Shown here in pieces: positions 4,638 through 41,342 of a stretch of DNA of 64,000 nucleotides. The DNA comes from Gemmatimonas groenlandica (GTDB taxonomy: Bacteria > Gemmatimonadota > Gemmatimonadetes > Gemmatimonadales > Gemmatimonadaceae). The position numbers and the translations under genes are program-made. Position 1 is the first letter of the stretch. Every line of letters begins with the position of its first letter. The notes under the pieces were generated by a model that searched no databases, was not told where the DNA came from, and saw only the letters and a program-made list of their open reading frames with translations. Location: positions 5,022,001 to 5,086,000 of the forward strand of contig NZ_CP053085.1 of assembly GCF_013004105.1 (NCBI RefSeq). The letters are read 5' to 3'.

Positions 4638-6421
4638 CCAGCCTGGAAACGGATCGTGCCCTCGCTCCGGAGCGCGAGTTCATCGCTGATGCGAGGATCC
4701 TCGTGATCGATGACGACCCGGATATCCATGCGCTGATGGTGGCTATGCTGCGGCCGCTACAGGCCGACATCGTCGGGGCAGCGACTGGTGCCGATGGCCT
4801 CGCGGCGGCGCGCACGGCACTTCCCGACGTGATCTTGCTCGACCACGAGCTGCCTGATGCCACCGGTCTCGACATCTTGCACCAGCTCCGGGGCGAACCC
4901 GCGTTAGCGGGTATCCCGGTCATCGTCGTCACCGGTAGCGAGAGCCGGCAGGTGCTCACGGCCTGCTTCGCGGCGGGGGCTGCCGACTACATTCGCAAGC
5001 CCTTCTTCGGCGCTGAGCTCCGCGCGCGTGTCTGCTCCGTCATCGAACGACAGCGTATGCTCGCACAACTTGGGCGCGCCGCGCATCTCGACAAACTGAC
5101 CGGTCTGCCAAACCGCGCATTGCTGAACGCCCGGCTGCAATCCGCGCTCGAGCGGACGGCGTTGGAGCCCAGCTATTCGTTCGCGGTGATGTTCATCGAT
5201 TTCGATCGCTTCAAGCTGATTAACGACAGCCTCGGGCACGATGTCGGTGATCTATTGCTCACCGAGATTGCCGAGCGCCTCCGCTCGAATCTCCGCGTGA
5301 ATGACTGTATTACGCGCGACACGATCGGGTCCACCGTGGCGCGGCTGGGCGGTGACGAGTTCGTGATCGTGCTCGACGACGTCGCGTCGGCGGAGGTGGC
5401 CGCTGCTGTCGCTGCACGTATGCTGGCCGTCCTCGAGCAACCGTATCTCTTGAAGTCGCATGTCGTCCGATCCAGCGCCAGTGTCGGCATCGTGCACAGC
5501 AGCGAGGGCTACACGCAGGCTGATGACATGCTCCGCGACGCGGACATCGCCATGTATGAGGCGAAGCGGCGCGGCAAGGCGTGCTACGCCCTGTTCACCA
5601 CGACGATGCGTGATGCCGTGCTCCACCGGATCGATATCGAGAACTCCCTGCGCGATGCGATCGATCGCCATGAGCTCTTCGTGGTGTATCAGCCTATCAT
5701 CTCTCTCGAAGACCGATCGATCGAGAGCGTGGAGGCGCTGGTGCGATGGCGCCATCCCGTGCACGGGATGATTGCCCCGTCCGAGTTCATCCCGGTGGCC
5801 GAAGAGACCCGGCTGATTCTTCCACTGTCCGATCAAGTGCTGCGCGAGTCGTGCCGGCAATTCATGGTCTGGCAACGCGAAGCGCCGGATTTCGCGCCGT
5901 CCTATATCAGCGTGAATCTATCGCGCATCCAGTTGGCTGATCCGGATCTGGTACCCCGCACCATGGAGATTCTGCGGGAGACCGGTATCGCACCGCATCA
6001 GGTGCAACTCGAGGTCACCGAGTCGCAGCTCATGCAGCATCGTGTGATGGCGGGTGAACTGCTCGCGGCGTTCAAGGCGGAGGGCATCCGGCTCGCGATG
6101 GATGATTTCGGCTCGGGCTACTCGTCGCTCTCCTGTCTGCAGGAGTATCCGTTCGACGTGCTCAAGGTGGACCGCGCGCTCACGGAGAACGTGAGCCGCG
6201 GTCGCGGCTACTCCGCGCTGCTGCACGCGGTGATATCGCTGGCGGAGAACCTCGGGTTGCATGTCGTGGCGGAAGGCATCGAGACCATCGAGCAGCTGGC
6301 ATTGTTGCAGGCCCTTGGCTGTCCGGCCGGGCAAGGTTTCTTACTCGCCAGACCCATGGAGCCGTCGAAGCTCGAGGCGTGGTGGTCAACATTTGTAGGC
6401 GAAGCATTCGAGGCCGCATGA
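4634..6421 (+). CDS. Response regulator with GGDEF and EAL domains (c-di-GMP turnover)
   Basis: A 595-residue cytoplasmic protein. The N-terminal receiver domain has Asp about 70 in [12 protein letters not shown]. The GGDEF domain keeps the intact signature at about 239-243, so it may make c-di-GMP. The EAL domain keeps EALVRW (from about 367), DDFGSGYSS and VAEGIE, so it may degrade c-di-GMP. Which activity dominates cannot be read from the sequence. The ATG overlaps the kinase stop by 4 bases, and its own stop overlaps the HDOD gene, so kinase, regulator and HDOD protein look like one pathway; the kinase HPt domain is a natural phosphate donor (inference). Confidence 0.94.
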
Positions 6422-34151: not shown

Positions 34152-34510
34152 CGGATAACGAACGTGAGGTGCTTATTGGTGGGATGCGCCGTGCAGGCGC
34201 CACCAAACGTACCGGGTGGCACGGTGTATTCGGTCTGCTCGCCGGCCGGGATGTTGAACATCGCCAGCTGATGCTTGACCGTGTCCTCGTTGACTACCCG
34301 AATCGTACGGCGCGCGCCACCACCGCGCACGTAGACCGTGTCGCCCAGCGGTGCCGTCCGGCCATAGGCATCGGTGACCATCGCCACGCCGCCGCGCGTC
34401 ACCCGGATCAGCGTATCCGGCCGCGGCCAGCTGAACCAGGCCAGCGCCACGCTCAGCGCAACGACGGCCAGCAGCACCGCGAGACGCGGCGGGGTGACGG
34501 CGCCGGTCAT
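34148..34510 (-). CDS. Membrane-anchored cupredoxin-like protein
   Basis: A 120-residue protein with one N-terminal membrane segment (LAVLLAVVALSVALAWF). The outside part looks like a small beta-sandwich. His about 80 in DTVKHQLAM and Cys about 106 and His about 109 in GACTAHP are spaced like a type-1 copper site, although the fourth ligand is not obvious. Overlaps both neighbours by 4 bases, between the PCu(A)C gene and bioF. Copper binding is inference from motif and neighbours. Confidence 0.7.
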   Translation of the reverse strand: MTGAVTPPRLAVLLAVVALSVALAWFSWPRPDTLIRVTRGGVAMVTDAYGRTAPLGDTVYVRGGGARRTIRVVNEDTVKHQLAMFNIPAGEQTEYTVPPGTFGGACTAHPTNKHLTFVIR

Positions 34511-34971
34511 GGCGCCCTCACCGGCACGGGCACCACCACGCTGGTGCTGTCGCTGAAGCGCAGGGTGATCCGCAGGCTGTCGCCCACCGCGAGCGTACGG
34601 CGTACGTCGACCAGCATCACGTGCAGTCCGCCGGGGGCCAGCGTTACGACATCGCCGGCCGGAATACGCAGTTCGGTGCGCGGCATCATGTGCGCCATAC
34701 CGTCCTGCTGCATCGTTTCATGCACCTCGGCAGCCCCGGCGTCCGGCGATGACGCGCCGACGAGCGTGATCGGCACGGTGTCGTTGTTGTCGATCTCCAT
34801 GTACGCGCCGCTCGTCGCGCCGGAATCGGCAATTCGCGCCCAGCTGTGCCGGATCGCCACCCGCGGCACGGGCGGCACGGAGCGGGTCGTGCAGGCGCCC
34901 AGCAGGGAGGCCGCAACGATGGTGACGGCAACGAGAATGGAGCGCCGCGCGGGAACTGCTGACGACATCAT
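34507..34971 (-). CDS. PCu(A)C periplasmic copper chaperone
   Basis: A 154-residue lipoprotein (lipobox LLGAC, Cys about 27). The copper(I) motif of the family, H-x(n)-M ... HxM, is visible: VHETMQQDGMAHMMP followed by GGLHVMLV. PCu(A)C delivers copper to the CuA site of cytochrome oxidase, usually with SCO1, which is the next gene upstream and overlaps by 4 bases. Confidence 0.9.
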   Translation of the reverse strand: MMSSAVPARRSILVAVTIVAASLLGACTTRSVPPVPRVAIRHSWARIADSGATSGAYMEIDNNDTVPITLVGASSPDAGAAEVHETMQQDGMAHMMPRTELRIPAGDVVTLAPGGLHVMLVDVRRTLAVGDSLRITLRFSDSTSVVVPVPVRAP

Positions 34972-35564
34972 TGCAACCGCTCGAGGTCGGCCGCCAAAGC
35001 GTCCCACCCCGTTCCGAAAGGGTACAGCGCCACCAGCTTGCCGTGCGAATCCACGAGAAAGACCTGTGACGAATGACTGACCAGATAACCGGTCGCGTCG
35101 GTGCCGGCCTCGCGGGCAGCGGCGACACCGAACGCGTCCATCATGCGAGAGGTGGTGATCGCATCGCCGGAGACACCTTCGAACGCCGCGTCATACATCC
35201 GCGCATACCGTTCAGCGAGCGCCGGCGTGTCGCGCTCAGGATCGACCGTGACAAACACGAAGCGCACTGCCTTTGCCTTGTCGCCCAGCGAGGCGCGCAC
35301 GCGTTTCCAGTCGGCGAGCGTCGTGGGGCAGACATCGGGACAATGCGTATACCCGAAGAACAGCACCATCGGCCGGCCGGGTTCCGGCGACGTGCTGAAG
35401 CGGGAGCCGTCGGCGCGCGTGAAGACGAACGTCGGCATCTCGCGGGGCGGATCGACGGCCATGCCCTTGAAGCTGCCGCCCAGCTCGCACGACGCCAGCA
35501 ACACGCAACCAAGCAGCAATGCGATGGGGCGCACGAAAGAACGGCGCGCTACGAAACGGCGCAT
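34968..35564 (-). CDS. SCO1/SenC copper chaperone for cytochrome oxidase
   Basis: A 198-residue lipoprotein with a thioredoxin-like fold (lipobox LLASC). The copper ligands are there: Cys about 75 and 79 in THCPDVCP and His about 164 in LVSHSSQ. Acts in the periplasm on the CuA centre. The start overlaps the end of the Fur-family gene by 16 bases and its stop overlaps the PCu(A)C start, so the three are one transcript. Confidence 0.93.
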   Translation of the reverse strand: MRRFVARRSFVRPIALLLGCVLLASCELGGSFKGMAVDPPREMPTFVFTRADGSRFSTSPEPGRPMVLFFGYTHCPDVCPTTLADWKRVRASLGDKAKAVRFVFVTVDPERDTPALAERYARMYDAAFEGVSGDAITTSRMMDAFGVAAAREAGTDATGYLVSHSSQVFLVDSHGKLVALYPFGTGWDALAADLERLQ

Positions 35565-35923
35565 CGCGCACACTGTCCGTACAACGTGACGTCGTGCGAT
35601 TCCAGCCGGAATCCCGCCGGCGTAAGCTCGCGCAGATCGCCAGGGCAGCCATGAATCTCGAAGACGCGCGCGCAACTGCGGCAGCGGAAGTGGTGATGAT
35701 GCTCGATGCCGGCGCGCTCGTAGCGGGGCGCCTCGCCAGGGAGTTCCACCGGTACCAGCCAGCCAGTTTCCACCAGCGCATTGATCGTGCGGTACACGGT
35801 AGCGATACCGAGGGTCGCCATCTGCTCCCGACCGGCTTCGAGCACCTCGGTGGGCCCCAGCGGTCGGGGTGTCACCTCGAAAACCTGCCGGATCGCATCG
35901 CGCTGTTTCGTGTTGCGTTCCAT
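35549..35923 (-). CDS. Fur-family metalloregulator (Fur, Zur or PerR type)
   Basis: A 124-residue DNA-binding repressor. Winged-helix recognition region GIATVYRTINALVETGWL; metal region EHHHHFRCRSCARVFEIHGC; structural zinc pairs CRSC (81, 84) and CARC (118, 121). The metal it senses cannot be read directly. Neighbours are copper genes on its own transcript and zinc-type genes next door (permease fusion, COG0523 GTPase, type B L31), so Zur is as likely as Fur. It begins a nine-gene run. Confidence 0.9.
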   Translation of the reverse strand: MERNTKQRDAIRQVFEVTPRPLGPTEVLEAGREQMATLGIATVYRTINALVETGWLVPVELPGEAPRYERAGIEHHHHFRCRSCARVFEIHGCPGDLRELTPAGFRLESHDVTLYGQCARCAVS

Positions 35924-35985
35924 CCGTCAAATATGCCTGGGGACCGAGTGGCGTGCAGGGCTGGCGCGGCGTTGATTTCGCGCTC

Positions 35986-36612
35986 ATGACCTCCGCCACG
36001 TCCGAGCGATCCCGATGGATTCGGCTCCTGATCCTCACTGTTGTCGCCATCGTCGTGGCCCACGCGCTCGATGCCACGGCGTGGCGTTCCGCTCGATTGC
36101 TCACGGTCAATGACAAGGACTGGGGACGCTTGCTGCGGTCGATGGGATACCTGCCGACATGGGGCGTCATCGCGCTGGGATTCTGGTTGCAGCAACGTGA
36201 CCACCCGCGTCGTGCTGCCTACGCGTGGGCACTGGTTCTCGGCCCAGCCCTCGGTGGTGGCATGGCCGAAGTCCTGAAGCTTTCGATCCGTCGGCTCCGT
36301 CCGAATCCTGACGTGTTCGAGTACCTGTTTCGCCCGTTCGCCGACGGGCCGCTGTCCAATCGCGGCATGGGTATGCCGAGCAGTCACGTGCTGGTCGCGT
36401 TCACCGGGGCGGCCGTACTCGCTCATCTCTTTCCGCGGGCCCGTTGGCTGTGGTACACGCTGGCTACGGGATGTGCCGTGACCCGAGTGCTGGCGATGGG
36501 GCATTTTCTGAGCGACACCGTGGTCGCCGCGATCCTGGGGATCGGGGTTGGCGGCTGGGTGTGGGACAGGGCGAATCGCGCGCTCCCTCAGGCATCCATC
36601 CCTTCCACTTGA
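35986..36612 (+). CDS. PAP2-family membrane phosphatase
   Basis: A 208-residue integral membrane protein. The three phosphatase signatures are intact: KLSIRRLRP, GMPSSH and RVLAMGHFLSD. About five hydrophobic segments. Probably dephosphorylates a lipid phosphate such as phosphatidic acid or undecaprenyl diphosphate. Divergent from the Fur-family gene with 62 bases between starts. Start chosen at MTSATSERSR, just before the first membrane segment. Confidence 0.9.
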   Translation: MTSATSERSRWIRLLILTVVAIVVAHALDATAWRSARLLTVNDKDWGRLLRSMGYLPTWGVIALGFWLQQRDHPRRAAYAWALVLGPALGGGMAEVLKLSIRRLRPNPDVFEYLFRPFADGPLSNRGMGMPSSHVLVAFTGAAVLAHLFPRARWLWYTLATGCAVTRVLAMGHFLSDTVVAAILGIGVGGWVWDRANRALPQASIPST

Positions 36613-36637
36613 TAGTGACTTCGCAATAAGACTATCA
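36610..36637 (+). promoter_or_regulatory. Candidate operator before the permease fusion gene
   Basis: TGATAGT (36610-36616) and ACTATCA (36631-36637) form a perfect 7-bp inverted repeat with a 14-base spacer; the half-sites are 21 bases (two helix turns) apart. It lies 75 bases before the permease start and overlaps the PAP2 stop codon. A Zur/Fur-type or other dimeric regulator could bind; unproven. Confidence 0.35.
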
Positions 36638-36711: not shown

Positions 36712-38556
36712 ATGAACCACGCCTTGCTGTTCGCCAGCATGGCGGGACTGGGCACCGGGCCTCTCGTCGCCCGGGCAGCCAAGGCCCGCCCCCAGATGCT
36801 GGCCTTCATCGACGGCTTCGTGCTGGTCACCATCGGTGGCTTGGTGCTGCTCGATGTGATCCCGCATGCGCTCGAGCACCGCGATCTGTGGGCCGGGCTG
36901 TTCATGCTGGTCGGCTTCACGCTGCCGAATCTGGCCGAGCGGTTGTTCCGCTTCGGTGTGCAGCAAACGCACACCGCCGTGCTGCTGCTCGCGCTGGTCG
37001 GCGTCGCCATTCACTCGGCACTCGACGGCAGCGCGCTGGCCCAGTCGGACGCCAATCCGTCCAGCCTGATCGGCTATGGCGTCGTGCTGCACCAGCTCCC
37101 CGTGAGTCTCATGGTGTGGTGGGTGCTCAGCGATCGCCCGCGTTCGGTCACCTGGTTCGTGCTCTCGTTGATGGCGCTGACGACGGTGGTGGGCTATTTC
37201 GCCGAGCCGACGATCTTCGCGGTGCTGCCCGATCGCGCCGGCGTCTGGTTTGAAGCGGTGGTCGGTGGTTCGTTGCTGCATGTGATCGCGCACCCCGCGC
37301 ATTCGCACGCGCACGATGACGAGCACGGCCACGGCCACGCTCACGACCACGAGCACGGGCACGCTCACGCTCACGATCACGACCATGCGCACGGCGCCCC
37401 GGACCCGGTGGATGCGGAGCACGACGAAATTCGTCTCGACGCCCACACGCGTGTCCCGAACGGCATCGGCGCGCTGCTCGGCATCTCCCTGCTGGTCGTA
37501 CTGCACATCAGCCAGAGCGGTCACGGCGATGCCTCGCTGCGCGCGATGTGGACGACGTTTGAGGGGTTGGCCATGGAAAGCGCGCCGGCCCTGCTGGTGG
37601 CGTACCTGATGGCGGGATTGGTACACGCCTTCGTGGCGCCGGGAAAACTCGCGTGGTTGAATCGCGGCTCGACGCTACGCCAGGGGCTGTCCGGCATGGC
37701 CCTTGGGCTCCCGCTGCCGATCTGCTCCTGCGGCGTCGTACCGCTGTATGAGGGGCTGGTGAAGCAAGGGGTTTCCACGGCCGCCGCCGTGGCGTTTCTC
37801 ATTGCCACGCCGGAACTCGGCATTGATGCGGTGCTGATGTCGGTGCCGTTGTTGGGGGCGCCGTTCACAATCGTCCGTGTGGCGGCTGCGGCGACCGTCG
37901 CGTTGGTCGTCGCGCTCGTCATGGCTCGACTCGCGGCTCCTCGTACGGCGACACGCTCGCTGCCGATGGCGGAGGCGGTGGTGTCGCTCTCTCTGCGCAC
38001 CCGCCTGCAGACCGCGATGCGCACGGGTTTCGCCGACATGGTCGATCACACGGCGCCGTGGATTCTCGTGGGTCTCATCATCGCCGCGTTGCTCGGGCCG
38101 TTGATGCAGGGCTCGTGGATGACGCGACTGCCCGGCGGTGTCGATGTGTTGCTCTTCGCGGCGATCGGCCTGCCGTTGTATGTGTGCGCATCGGCCTCGA
38201 CGCCGCTGGTGGCGGTGCTCGTCGCGGCTGGCGTGTCGCCCGGTGCCGGACTCGCGCTGTTGATCACCGGACCGGCCACCAACATGGCGACGATCGGGAT
38301 TCTCTCGCGTTTGCATGGCCAGCGGTTTGCCTACGCGTTTGCCGCCGCCATGATTGTCGCCGCCGTCGCGATCGGTCTGCTGGTGAACGTGGTGCTGCCC
38401 GCCGCTTCGCTGCCAACGCTGTCTCAGGCCTCGCTGGACACCACCACGTCACTCGAGCTGTTCTCGGTGCTCGCCTTGGCGGCACTGTACGCCGCTTCGG
38501 TGCTGCGACGCGGCGCCCGTGGGTTCCTGGGCGAGCTCCGGATGTCGCACGCATGA
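36712..38556 (+). CDS. Fusion of ZIP-like transporter, His-rich loop and ArsP_1-type permease
   Basis: A 614-residue inner-membrane protein. N-terminal part (about 1-195): ZIP-like helices with VIPHALEH, VGVAIHSALDGSAL and GYGVVLHQLPVSLM, resembling ZIP helices 4 and 5 but with the second motif lacking its glutamates. Then a loop of about 33 residues (197-229) that is almost only His, Asp, Ala, Gly. Then, from about 285, a permease of the ArsP_1 (old DUF318) type with LPLPICSCGVVPLYEGL, Cys 338 and 340. The frame is continuous, so the fusion is real as sequenced. It overlaps the COG0523 GTPase by 4 bases. Zinc is the likely metal, from the His loop and neighbours. Confidence 0.82.
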   Translation: MNHALLFASMAGLGTGPLVARAAKARPQMLAFIDGFVLVTIGGLVLLDVIPHALEHRDLWAGLFMLVGFTLPNLAERLFRFGVQQTHTAVLLLALVGVAIHSALDGSALAQSDANPSSLIGYGVVLHQLPVSLMVWWVLSDRPRSVTWFVLSLMALTTVVGYFAEPTIFAVLPDRAGVWFEAVVGGSLLHVIAHPAHSHAHDDEHGHGHAHDHEHGHAHAHDHDHAHGAPDPVDAEHDEIRLDAHTRVPNGIGALLGISLLVVLHISQSGHGDASLRAMWTTFEGLAMESAPALLVAYLMAGLVHAFVAPGKLAWLNRGSTLRQGLSGMALGLPLPICSCGVVPLYEGLVKQGVSTAAAVAFLIATPELGIDAVLMSVPLLGAPFTIVRVAAAATVALVVALVMARLAAPRTATRSLPMAEAVVSLSLRTRLQTAMRTGFADMVDHTAPWILVGLIIAALLGPLMQGSWMTRLPGGVDVLLFAAIGLPLYVCASASTPLVAVLVAAGVSPGAGLALLITGPATNMATIGILSRLHGQRFAYAFAAAMIVAAVAIGLLVNVVLPAASLPTLSQASLDTTTSLELFSVLALAALYAASVLRRGARGFLGELRMSHA

Positions 38557-39482
38557 TTCCGCTCGTGCTGATGGCCGGCTTCCTCGGCGCCGGCAAGACG
38601 CGCTTTCTCACCACGCTCATTCCGCAGCTGCTCGAGCGGGGCGTGCGTGTACGCATCGTGCTGAATGATTTCGAGAACGCGAAGATCGACGCCGCGCGAC
38701 TCGGCGAGCTTGATGCGCTGGTCACGCCGCTGAATGGCGAGTGCGTGTGCTGCGGTTCACTGCGTGAGCTGCTCGATACGCTGCAGGCGGTGCCGAATGA
38801 TCCGGGCAGTGTGATGCTGATCGAAGCCAACGGGGCTACGGAAACGGACGAGCTGCTGGGCTATCTCACCACCGACACCACGCTCACGCATTTCACGCTG
38901 CCGTTGCAACTCACCGTGATCGACGCGGCGCGCTGGCAGAAGCGCTGGTGGAATAACGGCCTTGAAGCGGCACAGACCACCACCGCAACGCACGTGCATC
39001 TCAATTGGACCGACAAGCTTACGCCCACGCGACGCGATGCGGTCCAGCAGGGTGTCGCCGCCGTGAACGCCCGCGCGGCGTTCACCACGCCGGGGGAATT
39101 CGCCGCCACACTGCAGTCACTGGCAGATTCGGTACGTGAGACGCCGCGACGCGATCCGCAGGGCGTTGCCACGGCGCACCGGCATCGCCACGGGCACACG
39201 CATCCCTTTGGCAGCGTCGCCCTGCCGCTCCCTCGCGTCGTCGAGCGGGCGCGTTTCCTGGCCTTCGTGCAGGCCCTGCCGGCGGCCGTCGTGCGCGCCA
39301 AGGGGCTCGTACGCTTCGTCGATCAGCCGGCCGACATGTTCGTCTGGAATCGGGTGCCGGGGCGGAAGAAGGTACAGCTCGACGAGTCGTCGCCGCACGC
39401 CGACGCCGAGGCGACGGCGCTGTTCATCGGGGTAGGGATGTCACTCGACGACCTCGAATTGCGGATCGCGGCGCTGACCTAG
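38553..39482 (+). CDS. COG0523 (CobW/ZNG1-like) metallochaperone GTPase
   Basis: A 309-residue G3E GTPase. Seen: Walker A GFLGAGKT near the start, the CxCC metal motif (Cys 64, 66, 67 in GECVCCGSL), a His-rich loop HRHRHGHTHP, and a C-terminal CobW_C domain (VRFVDQPADMFVWNRVPG). The NKxD motif reads NWTD, so guanine specificity may be altered. Family members hand zinc to client proteins under shortage. ATG overlaps the permease stop by 4 bases. Confidence 0.88.
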   Translation: MIPLVLMAGFLGAGKTRFLTTLIPQLLERGVRVRIVLNDFENAKIDAARLGELDALVTPLNGECVCCGSLRELLDTLQAVPNDPGSVMLIEANGATETDELLGYLTTDTTLTHFTLPLQLTVIDAARWQKRWWNNGLEAAQTTTATHVHLNWTDKLTPTRRDAVQQGVAAVNARAAFTTPGEFAATLQSLADSVRETPRRDPQGVATAHRHRHGHTHPFGSVALPLPRVVERARFLAFVQALPAAVVRAKGLVRFVDQPADMFVWNRVPGRKKVQLDESSPHADAEATALFIGVGMSLDDLELRIAALT

Positions 39483-39578: not shown

Positions 39579-39971
39579 ATGTCTCGCTCACTCGTTCGAT
39601 CGACCGTCCTCGTCGCCGTCATTGCGTTCAGCGCTCCCGTTCTCGCATCGGGTGCGGTGATGCGACATCTCAAACTCGTCCGCTCGTTCCCGGCCGCCGA
39701 TACGGTGCTGGTGGCGTCGCCCGAGAAGATCACGATCGAGCTGAGTGAGGCCGTCGAACTCACCGGCGCCAAGCTCACGCTGTCGAAAGAGGGCGGGGCA
39801 CCCGTCGCACTTGGCTCGCTGCGTCGTGAGCCGAGCGCGCCGAAAGTGATGCGCGCCGATGTCCCGACCACGCTCGCCGGCGGCAGCTACAGCGTGTCGT
39901 GGCGCACGATGTCGAAGGACGGGCATGTGGTGAAGGGGACGTTCGGCTTTCGTGTAGGCGCCGCGAAGTAA
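39579..39971 (+). CDS. copC: CopC-domain copper-binding periplasmic protein
   Basis: A 130-residue secreted beta-sandwich protein with signal peptide (STVLVAVIAFSAPVLASG). The mature start HLKLVRSFPAADTVLVASP has the CopC pattern of an N-terminal His near the cleavage site and the SxPA motif, and the C-terminal SKDGHVVKGTFGFRV carries the second His, so a Cu(II) site is plausible. Start at 39579 gives a normal signal peptide. Followed by copD after 11 bases. Confidence 0.88.
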   Translation: MSRSLVRSTVLVAVIAFSAPVLASGAVMRHLKLVRSFPAADTVLVASPEKITIELSEAVELTGAKLTLSKEGGAPVALGSLRREPSAPKVMRADVPTTLAGGSYSVSWRTMSKDGHVVKGTFGFRVGAAK

Positions 39972-39982
39972 GCGGTACACGC

Positions 39983-40816
39983 GTGGAGTTCGCCGCACCG
40001 CTCGTCCGCTTGCTGCTGTACGGTGGCGCCACCGTGGCGATCGGGCGCGCCTCGCTCACGTTTGTCGAAAGCGACACCGGGCAGGAGCGGCGCGCGGTGC
40101 GTTTGTCGCTGTGGGTGAGCGCGATTGCCCTCGTCATCGCGCCACTCGCGTTGTTGCTGCTGCAGCAACAGGCCCTCGAATTGACGTTCACCGAGCTGCC
40201 AGGCCTGTTGCGCGATACCACTTGGGGGCGGGGGTGGATGCAGCTGGCGATTCCCTGTGTGCTCTCGGCGATTCTCCTGCCCCTGCGGAGCACACGTACG
40301 ACGTCGTTGTTCCTGCTGCTCGCTGTGCTCGGCGTGGCGGCCGCCATGGGCGGGCTTGGGCATGCCGCCGCCGATGAACAGTGGCCGTTGACCTCGCGCC
40401 TGTTCGATGCCATGCACGTGGCGGGTGTGGGCGCGTGGATTGGCGGCCTCGCGCTGCTGATGCTGGCAGGGGCGGGGAGTGTGGGAGGCGCGGCGCCAAC
40501 CGCGAGTGAGTGGCGCACCTTCAGCCGGACGGCCACCGTGATGGCGCCGGTGGTCCTGTTGTCGGGCGTCGGCAGCGGGTGGCGGCGCGTTGGTGCGAGC
40601 ACGATCACCGCCGTACTGGCGAGTGCCTACGGGCGCGTGTTGTTCCTCAAGGTCGCGCTCGTCCTGGTCGTGCTGGCGTTGGGGTACGCACAGCGGCGAC
40701 GGATCGCGGCGGGACAGGTGCCGGCGAGAAAGGCGGTGCGGTCGGAGCTGCTCGTCGCCGCGGTGGTCTTCTGCGCGACGGCCTGGATGACCGGCATGGA
40801 GCCGCCTGGCGAGTGA
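39983..40816 (+). CDS. copD: CopD-family copper import membrane protein
   Basis: A 277-residue protein with about eight membrane segments. The CopD core is visible in MHVAGVGAWIGGLALL, with conserved His. Works with CopC to move copper into the cytoplasm. GTG start at 39983; earlier in-frame codons would overlap copC. Its transcript ends before the shared hairpin at 40846-40874. Confidence 0.85.
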   Translation: MEFAAPLVRLLLYGGATVAIGRASLTFVESDTGQERRAVRLSLWVSAIALVIAPLALLLLQQQALELTFTELPGLLRDTTWGRGWMQLAIPCVLSAILLPLRSTRTTSLFLLLAVLGVAAAMGGLGHAAADEQWPLTSRLFDAMHVAGVGAWIGGLALLMLAGAGSVGGAAPTASEWRTFSRTATVMAPVVLLSGVGSGWRRVGASTITAVLASAYGRVLFLKVALVLVVLALGYAQRRRIAAGQVPARKAVRSELLVAAVVFCATAWMTGMEPPGE

Positions 40817-40897: not shown

Positions 40898-41140
40898 TTA
40901 GCGGTTGTAGCGCTTCTTGAACTTGTCGACGCGACCCTGCGTGTCGATGAGGCGCTGCGTGCCGGTGTAGAACGGGTGCGAATCGGCGGTGATTTCGAGC
41001 AGGATGAGGGGATACTCGTTCCCGTCTTCCATCTTGATCTTCTGCTCGCTGGTCATCGTCGAGCGCGTGATGATCGTCGCGCCCGTGGACGAATCCTTGA
41101 ACACCACCGAATGGTACGGCGGATGAATGCCTTCCTTCAT
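40898..41140 (-). CDS. rpmE: Ribosomal protein L31, type B (zinc-free)
   Basis: An 80-residue L31. It starts [19 protein letters not shown] and ends [12 protein letters not shown], with [10 protein letters not shown] in the middle. The CxxC zinc pair of type A L31 is missing, so this is the type B (C-minus) form, which in many bacteria is made under zinc shortage and replaces the zinc form. A good Shine-Dalgarno (GGAG) lies about 6 bases before the ATG. The 202-base leader above it holds a weak promoter-like TTGACC and no recognised riboswitch. Confidence 0.95.
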
Positions 41141-41342
41141 GGTAACTCCAGCATGCGCCACCATTTCCGGCGGGAGCGCGTTTCTAAATGGGGGTCCGAT
41201 CGACAGGGCAAAGCCCATGCGATGCGGTCGCCTGTTTCGGCGAGCCTGAATGAATCGCCGTTTCGGGCGGCAAGGTCAAGCGGTCCGGCCCGTTTAGGAC
41301 GGGTTTTCGGTCTAATGATACCCCGATATCGATAACAAAGGC

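Follow-up and report, generated by a model that had tools for sequence, protein, structure and literature searches.

In the ZIP transporter BbZIP, metal site M1 is the transport site; the second site, M2, is non-essential, and its loss lowers transport modestly (PMC11549095; PMC10256678). SO_0444, which is annotated as an efflux protein, is required for the survival of Zn and Cu excess (PMC3219624). In B. anthracis, Zur-bound sites lie upstream of the COG0523 gene yciC and of an operon for an ArsP_1 permease (BAS1632); the authors took the site at the permease operon to mean positive regulation and named no substrate (PMC6336718). Genes for COG0523 proteins, L31/L33 and Zrg components are typical of zinc limitation (PMC6103462; PMC9820375).

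We analysed a 64,000-nucleotide stretch of the Gemmatimonas groenlandica genome (the window), in which ZIP importers and SO_0444/ArsP_1 permeases, named for opposite jobs, are represented in one protein that is kept in parts of two phyla. With a probability of about 0.5, we read this fusion as an inner-membrane zinc importer made under zinc limitation. If so, it would give Gemmatimonas a route for zinc in a genome with no detectable ZnuB, ZrgA or ordinary ZIP, would be a natural ZIP with an M1-type site only, and would raise the question of what ArsP_1 permeases, which are poorly understood, do in zinc regulons. The design is built from known families, and no report of such a fusion was found in the papers searched. 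Searches for the fusion or for COG0523 together with COG0701 returned nothing, and a wider search gave the B. anthracis Zur paper as the only match, both mostly covering literature outside subscription journals. For Zur regulation of ycgR/ycgQ in B. subtilis, no confirmation was found in the papers searched.

Two predicted transporter folds in one reading frame

The features of the locus are listed in the table below. The genome carrying the fusion is a single contig of 5.18 Mb. Intact frames of the same design (21 others aligned at first pass, 48 in all) ruled out an origin by sequencing error or frame joining, and the joining of a ZIP-type to an ArsP_1-type half, as proposed in an earlier note on this DNA, is real and conserved in two phyla. 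We also rejected the possibility that both halves belong to one family, as predicted models of the two gave different solved-fold matches, BbZIP for the first and ArsB/AbgT/DASS for the second.

Features of the fusion locus (positions in the window; residue numbers refer to the fusion)
Feature	Position	Strand	Details
PCuAC copper chaperone and SCO1-like protein (putative name, from sequence)	34507..35564	-	syntenic in genus
Fur-family regulator, candidate Zur	35549..35923	-	PF01475 E 2.3e-19
PAP2 phosphatase-like gene	35953..36612	+	between regulator and fusion
Fur-family (Zur-like) box	36609..36629	+	TTGATAGTGACTTCGCAATAA; overlaps TTGATA-18-TATCAT promoter-like pair before fusion
ZIP-fold / ArsP_1 fusion permease	36712..38556	+	614 aa; single uninterrupted ORF
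ZIP-fold module, residues 1-268	36712..37515	+	8 TM helices; model residues 1-267 vs BbZIP
H101 = BbZIP H177 (M1 ligand)	37012..37014	+	His in 60/60 relatives
D105 = BbZIP E181	37024-37026	+	acidic (Asp/Glu) in 60/60 relatives
H127 = BbZIP Q207 (M1 ligand)	37090..37092	+	His in 60/60 relatives
TM7 motif HxxxH, H190 and H194	37279..37293	+	alignment with BbZIP
His-rich loop, residues 197-229	37300..37398	+	ZIP TM7-TM8; 15 His in 33 residues
ArsP_1 / SO_0444-like permease half, residues 274-614	37531..38553	+	PF03773
CSCG, residues 338-341	37723..37734	+	first hairpin break; CSC invariant in 37 sequences
YVCA	38179..38190	+	second hairpin break
COG0523 GTPase	38553..39482	+	309 aa; cobW domain E 6.9e-24; CVCC at 38742-38753
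CopC	39579-39971	+	
CopD	39983-40816	+	
Ribosomal protein L31, type-B-like	40898..41218	-	without Zn-finger cysteines; genome's sole L31

The AlphaFold model of the fusion was built from 22 fusions (pLDDT 78, pTM 0.76). In this predicted model, residues 1-267 superposed on residues 57-307 of BbZIP (reference structures 7z6n/5tsa; SLC39, PF02535) with Z 15.8 over 207 residues and an rmsd of 3.7, the best match among solved structures; the similarity came via VIA-align, and Foldseek gave no match at E <= 0.001. In a Pfam scan the first half had no family above the cut-off: PF02535 scored 16-17 bits in pieces (20.8 bits for L013), the gathering cut-off of 35.1 not being reached. These pieces lie in order along the frame, and the sole other place in the genome matching the ZIP profile was weaker (E 0.27). 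In a phmmer search the ZIP half was linked to an ordinary ZIP (L091; 6.6e-12) that itself matches PF02535 at 1.2e-20. Matches of the fusion to Pfam 'ZrgA' and to PDB PA4063 were discarded, being due to the His-rich stretch alone. As modelled, residues 1-268 are a complete eight-helix ZIP fold, and this fold (by its Z value) together with the sequence homology to bona fide ZIPs argues for zinc import.

The His-rich loop described in the earlier note is present; however, its proposed place at the joint between the halves was not borne out. In the model it is flanked by helices 176-192 and 244-267 and so lies within the ZIP module, which rules it out as an inter-domain linker. If ZIP topology holds, the loop would face the cytosol, as the Arg/Lys-bearing TM1-2, TM3-4 and TM5-6 loops also suggest. 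A cytosolic His-rich loop would then be common to the fusion and the ZIP family, although in the latter it connects TM3 and TM4. In place of the TM7-TM8 His loop, several Planctomycetota fusions (L107-L110, L114, L115, L042) carry both a His-rich TM4-TM5 loop, periplasmic by ZIP topology, and C-terminal tails rich in Cys and His. Stand-alone ZIP-like proteins of 200-240 aa in Gemmatimonadota (L074-L085, e.g., L075:2909-3544 on the minus strand) lack TM8, the chain stopping behind TM7 in a tail of HQGRHDHxH type; for the three that were scanned, neither Pfam nor NCBIfam offered a zinc-transporter family or any other credible match.

The second half matched PF03773 (ArsP_1) over residues 276-559 with E 1e-38 and 133.6 bits, above the gathering cut-off of 32.3. 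Its best named family was that of SO_0444 (NF033936), at 205 bits against an equivalog cut-off of 300. A separate model of residues 251-614, built from 37 sequences (pLDDT 88, pTM 0.86), contains two hairpins with the CSCG reported earlier at the break of the first and YVCA at that of the second; the segment around the latter, GLPLYVCASASTPL, visibly repeats GLPLPICSCGVVPL. The invariant CSC would provide thiol residues for a soft metal, which counts in favour of the overall reading proposed below. The nearest solved structures were YdaH (Z 13.9), ArsB (Z 13.6) and DASS carriers (Z up to 12.9); for this predicted model about 47 mostly IT/CNT matches ran from Z 13.9 to about 7, followed by unrelated ones from 4.3. 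This likeness was again found by VIA-align, Foldseek giving no match at E <= 0.001. The predicted two-hairpin fold resembles that of IT-superfamily carriers (ArsB 10tp, YdaH 4r0c, VcINDY, SiaQM; Z 11-14); no sequence relation to them was detected here, and their substrates are anions, drugs or organic compounds. The C-half would then be a permease of ArsP_1/SO_0444-like type whose fold recalls the IT superfamily. Since the IT-superfamily neighbours include both exporters and importers, the fold gives no direction. The pairing of an import half with an export half, as the earlier note had it, is possible, but its export direction derives solely from the SO_0444 family name.

The COG0523 gene starts at an ATG inside the end of the fusion (CGCATGATTC), overlapping it by four bases. 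Its product belongs to the COG0523/G3E GTPases by its cobW domain, GxxGAGKT (Walker A) and CVCC, and it also carries a HRHRHGHTH stretch. According to the models, one chain is composed of two different transporter folds and is translationally coupled to a CxCC COG0523 GTPase. The overlap bears out the coupling claimed in the earlier note, but this is largely a Gemmatimonas feature, with no COG0523 gene seen beside the Planctomycetota fusions.

An altered metal site in the ZIP-fold half

Metal sites were compared in an alignment of BbZIP and two ordinary ZIPs with 48 fusions and 12 relatives of the stand-alone kind. As in BbZIP, TM4 carries a His and an acidic residue and TM5 a ligand, and D34 (BbZIP D89) is invariant in the alignment. 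The M2 residues of BbZIP (N178, D208 and E240) are replaced, mostly by S/A, Q/R and T, respectively. At the position of the bridging Glu and M1 ligand E211, most members have Val and seven have Glu. In addition, TM7 carries an extra His: H190 is invariant, in place of Phe271 in BbZIP and Tyr in the two ordinary Gemmatimonadota ZIPs. H194 corresponds to BbZIP H275 in the exit-site region. Thus, besides its score below the Pfam gathering threshold and its union with a second carrier, the fusion differs from the ZIP family in its metal site. The statement that the metal-site glutamates are missing held for the bridging Glu in most members and for the M2 set, but two His and one Asp are kept. Because these three residues are retained, M2 is lost and M1 carries transport in BbZIP, the alignment suggests a site that is altered rather than empty, M1-like and possibly mononuclear. 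The invariance of the M1-equivalent His/Asp/His in the 60 relatives favours the zinc-import reading, whereas the Val at E211 in most members speaks against it.

The loss of M2 and of the bridging Glu would also suit a Cu/Zn exporter resembling SO_0444. In such a protein a ZIP-like half that no longer transports would serve as a built-in metal sensor or gate, and metal binding at H101/D105/H127 and in the His-rich loop would cause the ArsP_1 half to open for efflux. The C-half is nearest to a Cu/Zn efflux family whose founder is required under Zn/Cu stress, and copper genes flank the locus; the function of this named relative in Zn/Cu excess (PMC3219624) equally counts against zinc import. However, genome G021 (a single contig) has a fusion in which CSCG and adjacent segments are gone from the ArsP half, whereas the promoter box, the ZIP half and its His loop persist. 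This speaks for the ZIP half as the portion retained to serve the regulated function; an exporter with an accessory domain would be expected to show the opposite pattern. Moreover, the box is shared with zinc-limitation genes and overlaps the promoter as a repressor site would, and no other zinc importer was found in the genome of the window. We therefore consider such an exporter unlikely.

Losses in the C-half were noted at individual loci. In L024:709-2409 (minus strand; the same gene occurs in L131) CSCG and YxCA have disappeared from the ArsP half, with no damage to the ZIP half, the His loop or the Fur-type box. A Planctomycetota fusion (L113:2127-5099) keeps CSCG and has neither the second-hairpin YxCA nor GPATN, possibly reflecting another degenerate C-half.

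Promoter box, putative regulon and neighbouring genes

The box TTGATAGTGnnTTYGCAATAA, or a near form of it, precedes most Gemmatimonas fusions. A matrix trained on ten fusion-type sites, the fusion's own box included (a point against the zinc-import reading), was used to scan 297 kb of 19 loci. It found 35 sites, all of them intergenic (intergenic DNA making up 12% of the sequence), compared with 0.9 on average for column-permuted matrices. Twelve sites were at fusions and partly belonged to the training set. Of the 23 elsewhere, 19 precede COG0523, DUF3299-ZrgA, L33, L31, MerC-like or ABC genes, the stretches upstream of which make up 5.4% of the sequence; this enrichment is somewhat optimistic, as the gene list was drawn up after the neighbourhoods had been seen, which leaves the absence of intragenic sites unaffected. 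The box is common to the fusion and known zinc-limitation genes in Gemmatimonas only. When the consensus was searched in the 5.18 Mb genome with up to 3 mismatches, the fusion's box was the sole site, and the case for a wider regulon therefore comes from sister species. Judged by these sites, the fusion looks like a member of a zinc-starvation regulon.

The genome has two Fur-family genes, one of which adjoins the fusion; such a gene adjoins it in another family of the order too (L088). The neighbouring Fur-like protein is probably the regulator (Zur), although by profile it is as near Fur/PerR as Zur; this resemblance weighs against zinc import.

The sharing of the box with zinc-limitation genes and the neighbours of the fusions, among them COG0523, L33 beside a second COG0523, ZrgA and DUF3299, argue for zinc import. 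So does the finding that no ABC-3 (ZnuB) permease, ZrgA or other ZIP was detectable in the window's genome by searches for these three types. The ABC-3 and ZIP searches worked in control genomes, and the ZrgA search was positive in three sister genomes. The B. anthracis precedent, an ArsP_1 permease together with COG0523 (yciC) in a zinc regulon, is a further argument, although the BAS1632 operon has no described ZIP module and encodes separate proteins. Relative to the SO_0444 family, with which it shares the CSCG and YxCA motifs, the fusion is likewise set apart by the preceding ZIP module and, in Gemmatimonas, by its zinc-limitation type of promoter context. The 'new transport plan' suggested in the earlier note is unproven, and the regulatory setting of the fusion speaks for zinc limitation.

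The same context could mean that both halves import, in a two-lane importer of zinc (or of zinc and copper) with a Zur-controlled ArsP_1 half. An importer role may be suspected for ArsP_1 permeases beside yciC, given Zur binding at the B. anthracis operon, and IT-superfamily folds include importers (DASS, TRAP). We find this rather improbable, as the B. anthracis site was taken for positive regulation of an operon with no assigned substrate and those SO_0444 relatives that have been characterised either confer protection from excess metal or are induced by it.

The flanking copper genes also oppose the zinc-import reading. The PCuAC-SCO1 and CopC-CopD pairs are syntenic with the fusion across the genus, and with the thiol motif they would fit a unit that handles copper rather than zinc and serves a respiratory oxidase. 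However, in several species the fusion stands instead beside L33, ZrgA and DUF3299, the box joins it to zinc genes, and these copper neighbours are absent near the Planctomycetota fusions examined, which makes a copper unit very unlikely. Two further observations go against zinc import: both the box and COG0523 are missing from the surroundings of the Planctomycetota fusions, and the L31 gene, near which a weak box lies (around position 41315), is the only one of the genome and hence was rejected as a zinc-free second copy.

On the zinc-import reading, the promoter box would be occupied by a repressor of the Fur family that senses zinc and leaves when zinc is scarce; the Fur-like protein encoded next to the fusion is the probable Zur. 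The ZIP half would then carry Zn2+ from the periplasm to the cytosol by the ZIP elevator mechanism, through a mononuclear M1-type site of H101, D105 and H127, perhaps with H190. The metal would exit past H194 into the cytosolic His-rich loop, acting as a buffer or sensor, and could be accepted by the co-translated COG0523 GTPase through its CVCC and His stretch. The ArsP_1 half would act as another carrier, probably of the elevator type, with its thiol site where the two hairpins break; its favoured role, which we put forward tentatively, is to expel soft metals that enter with zinc, such as Cu+ and Cd2+, as a selectivity check in the same chain. The full arrangement, in which one polypeptide holds two opposite elevator carriers (a single-metal-site ZIP importer and a thiol-site exporter) and physically couples zinc entry to the ejection of wrong metals, with COG0523 as acceptor, is an equally tentative proposal.

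In some Gemmatimonadota (L142, L128) the fusion is adjoined by genes of ZrgABCDE, a zinc ABC importer of unrelated transporter type. Near one fusion (L142:9419-13273) we found genes for an ArsR-type regulator, an FtsX/MacB-like permease, an ABC ATPase, DUF3299 and ZrgA, a cluster that may encode a Zrg-like zinc importer. An ABC transporter operon at L128:1258-4881, which also occurs in L035, encodes an ATPase and two large membrane proteins; a box of the zinc type lies at 4938.

Distribution and descent

A search with the ZIP half matched 113 of 395 Gemmatimonadota genomes. About 44 of the 395 had fusion-length open frames, both halves being verified in the distinct fusions that were aligned or scanned; other matching genomes had ZIPs of the ordinary kind or the stand-alone ZIP-like protein. 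Among 294 Planctomycetota genomes 42 matched, 36 with fusion-length frames, and both halves were verified in 20 loci besides L042. Three weak matches, none a clear relative, came from 388 genomes around a Verrucomicrobia genome, and a plasmid search yielded no fusion and one C-half only. The distances of the two halves over 48 fusions were correlated (r 0.86, and 0.91 within Gemmatimonadota), which fits joint descent; between the phyla r was 0.12, both distances being large and nearly constant. In two loci (L140:9099-17000 and L143:9097-17001), a fusion of another lineage adjoins a very large ketosynthase-type (polyketide) gene.
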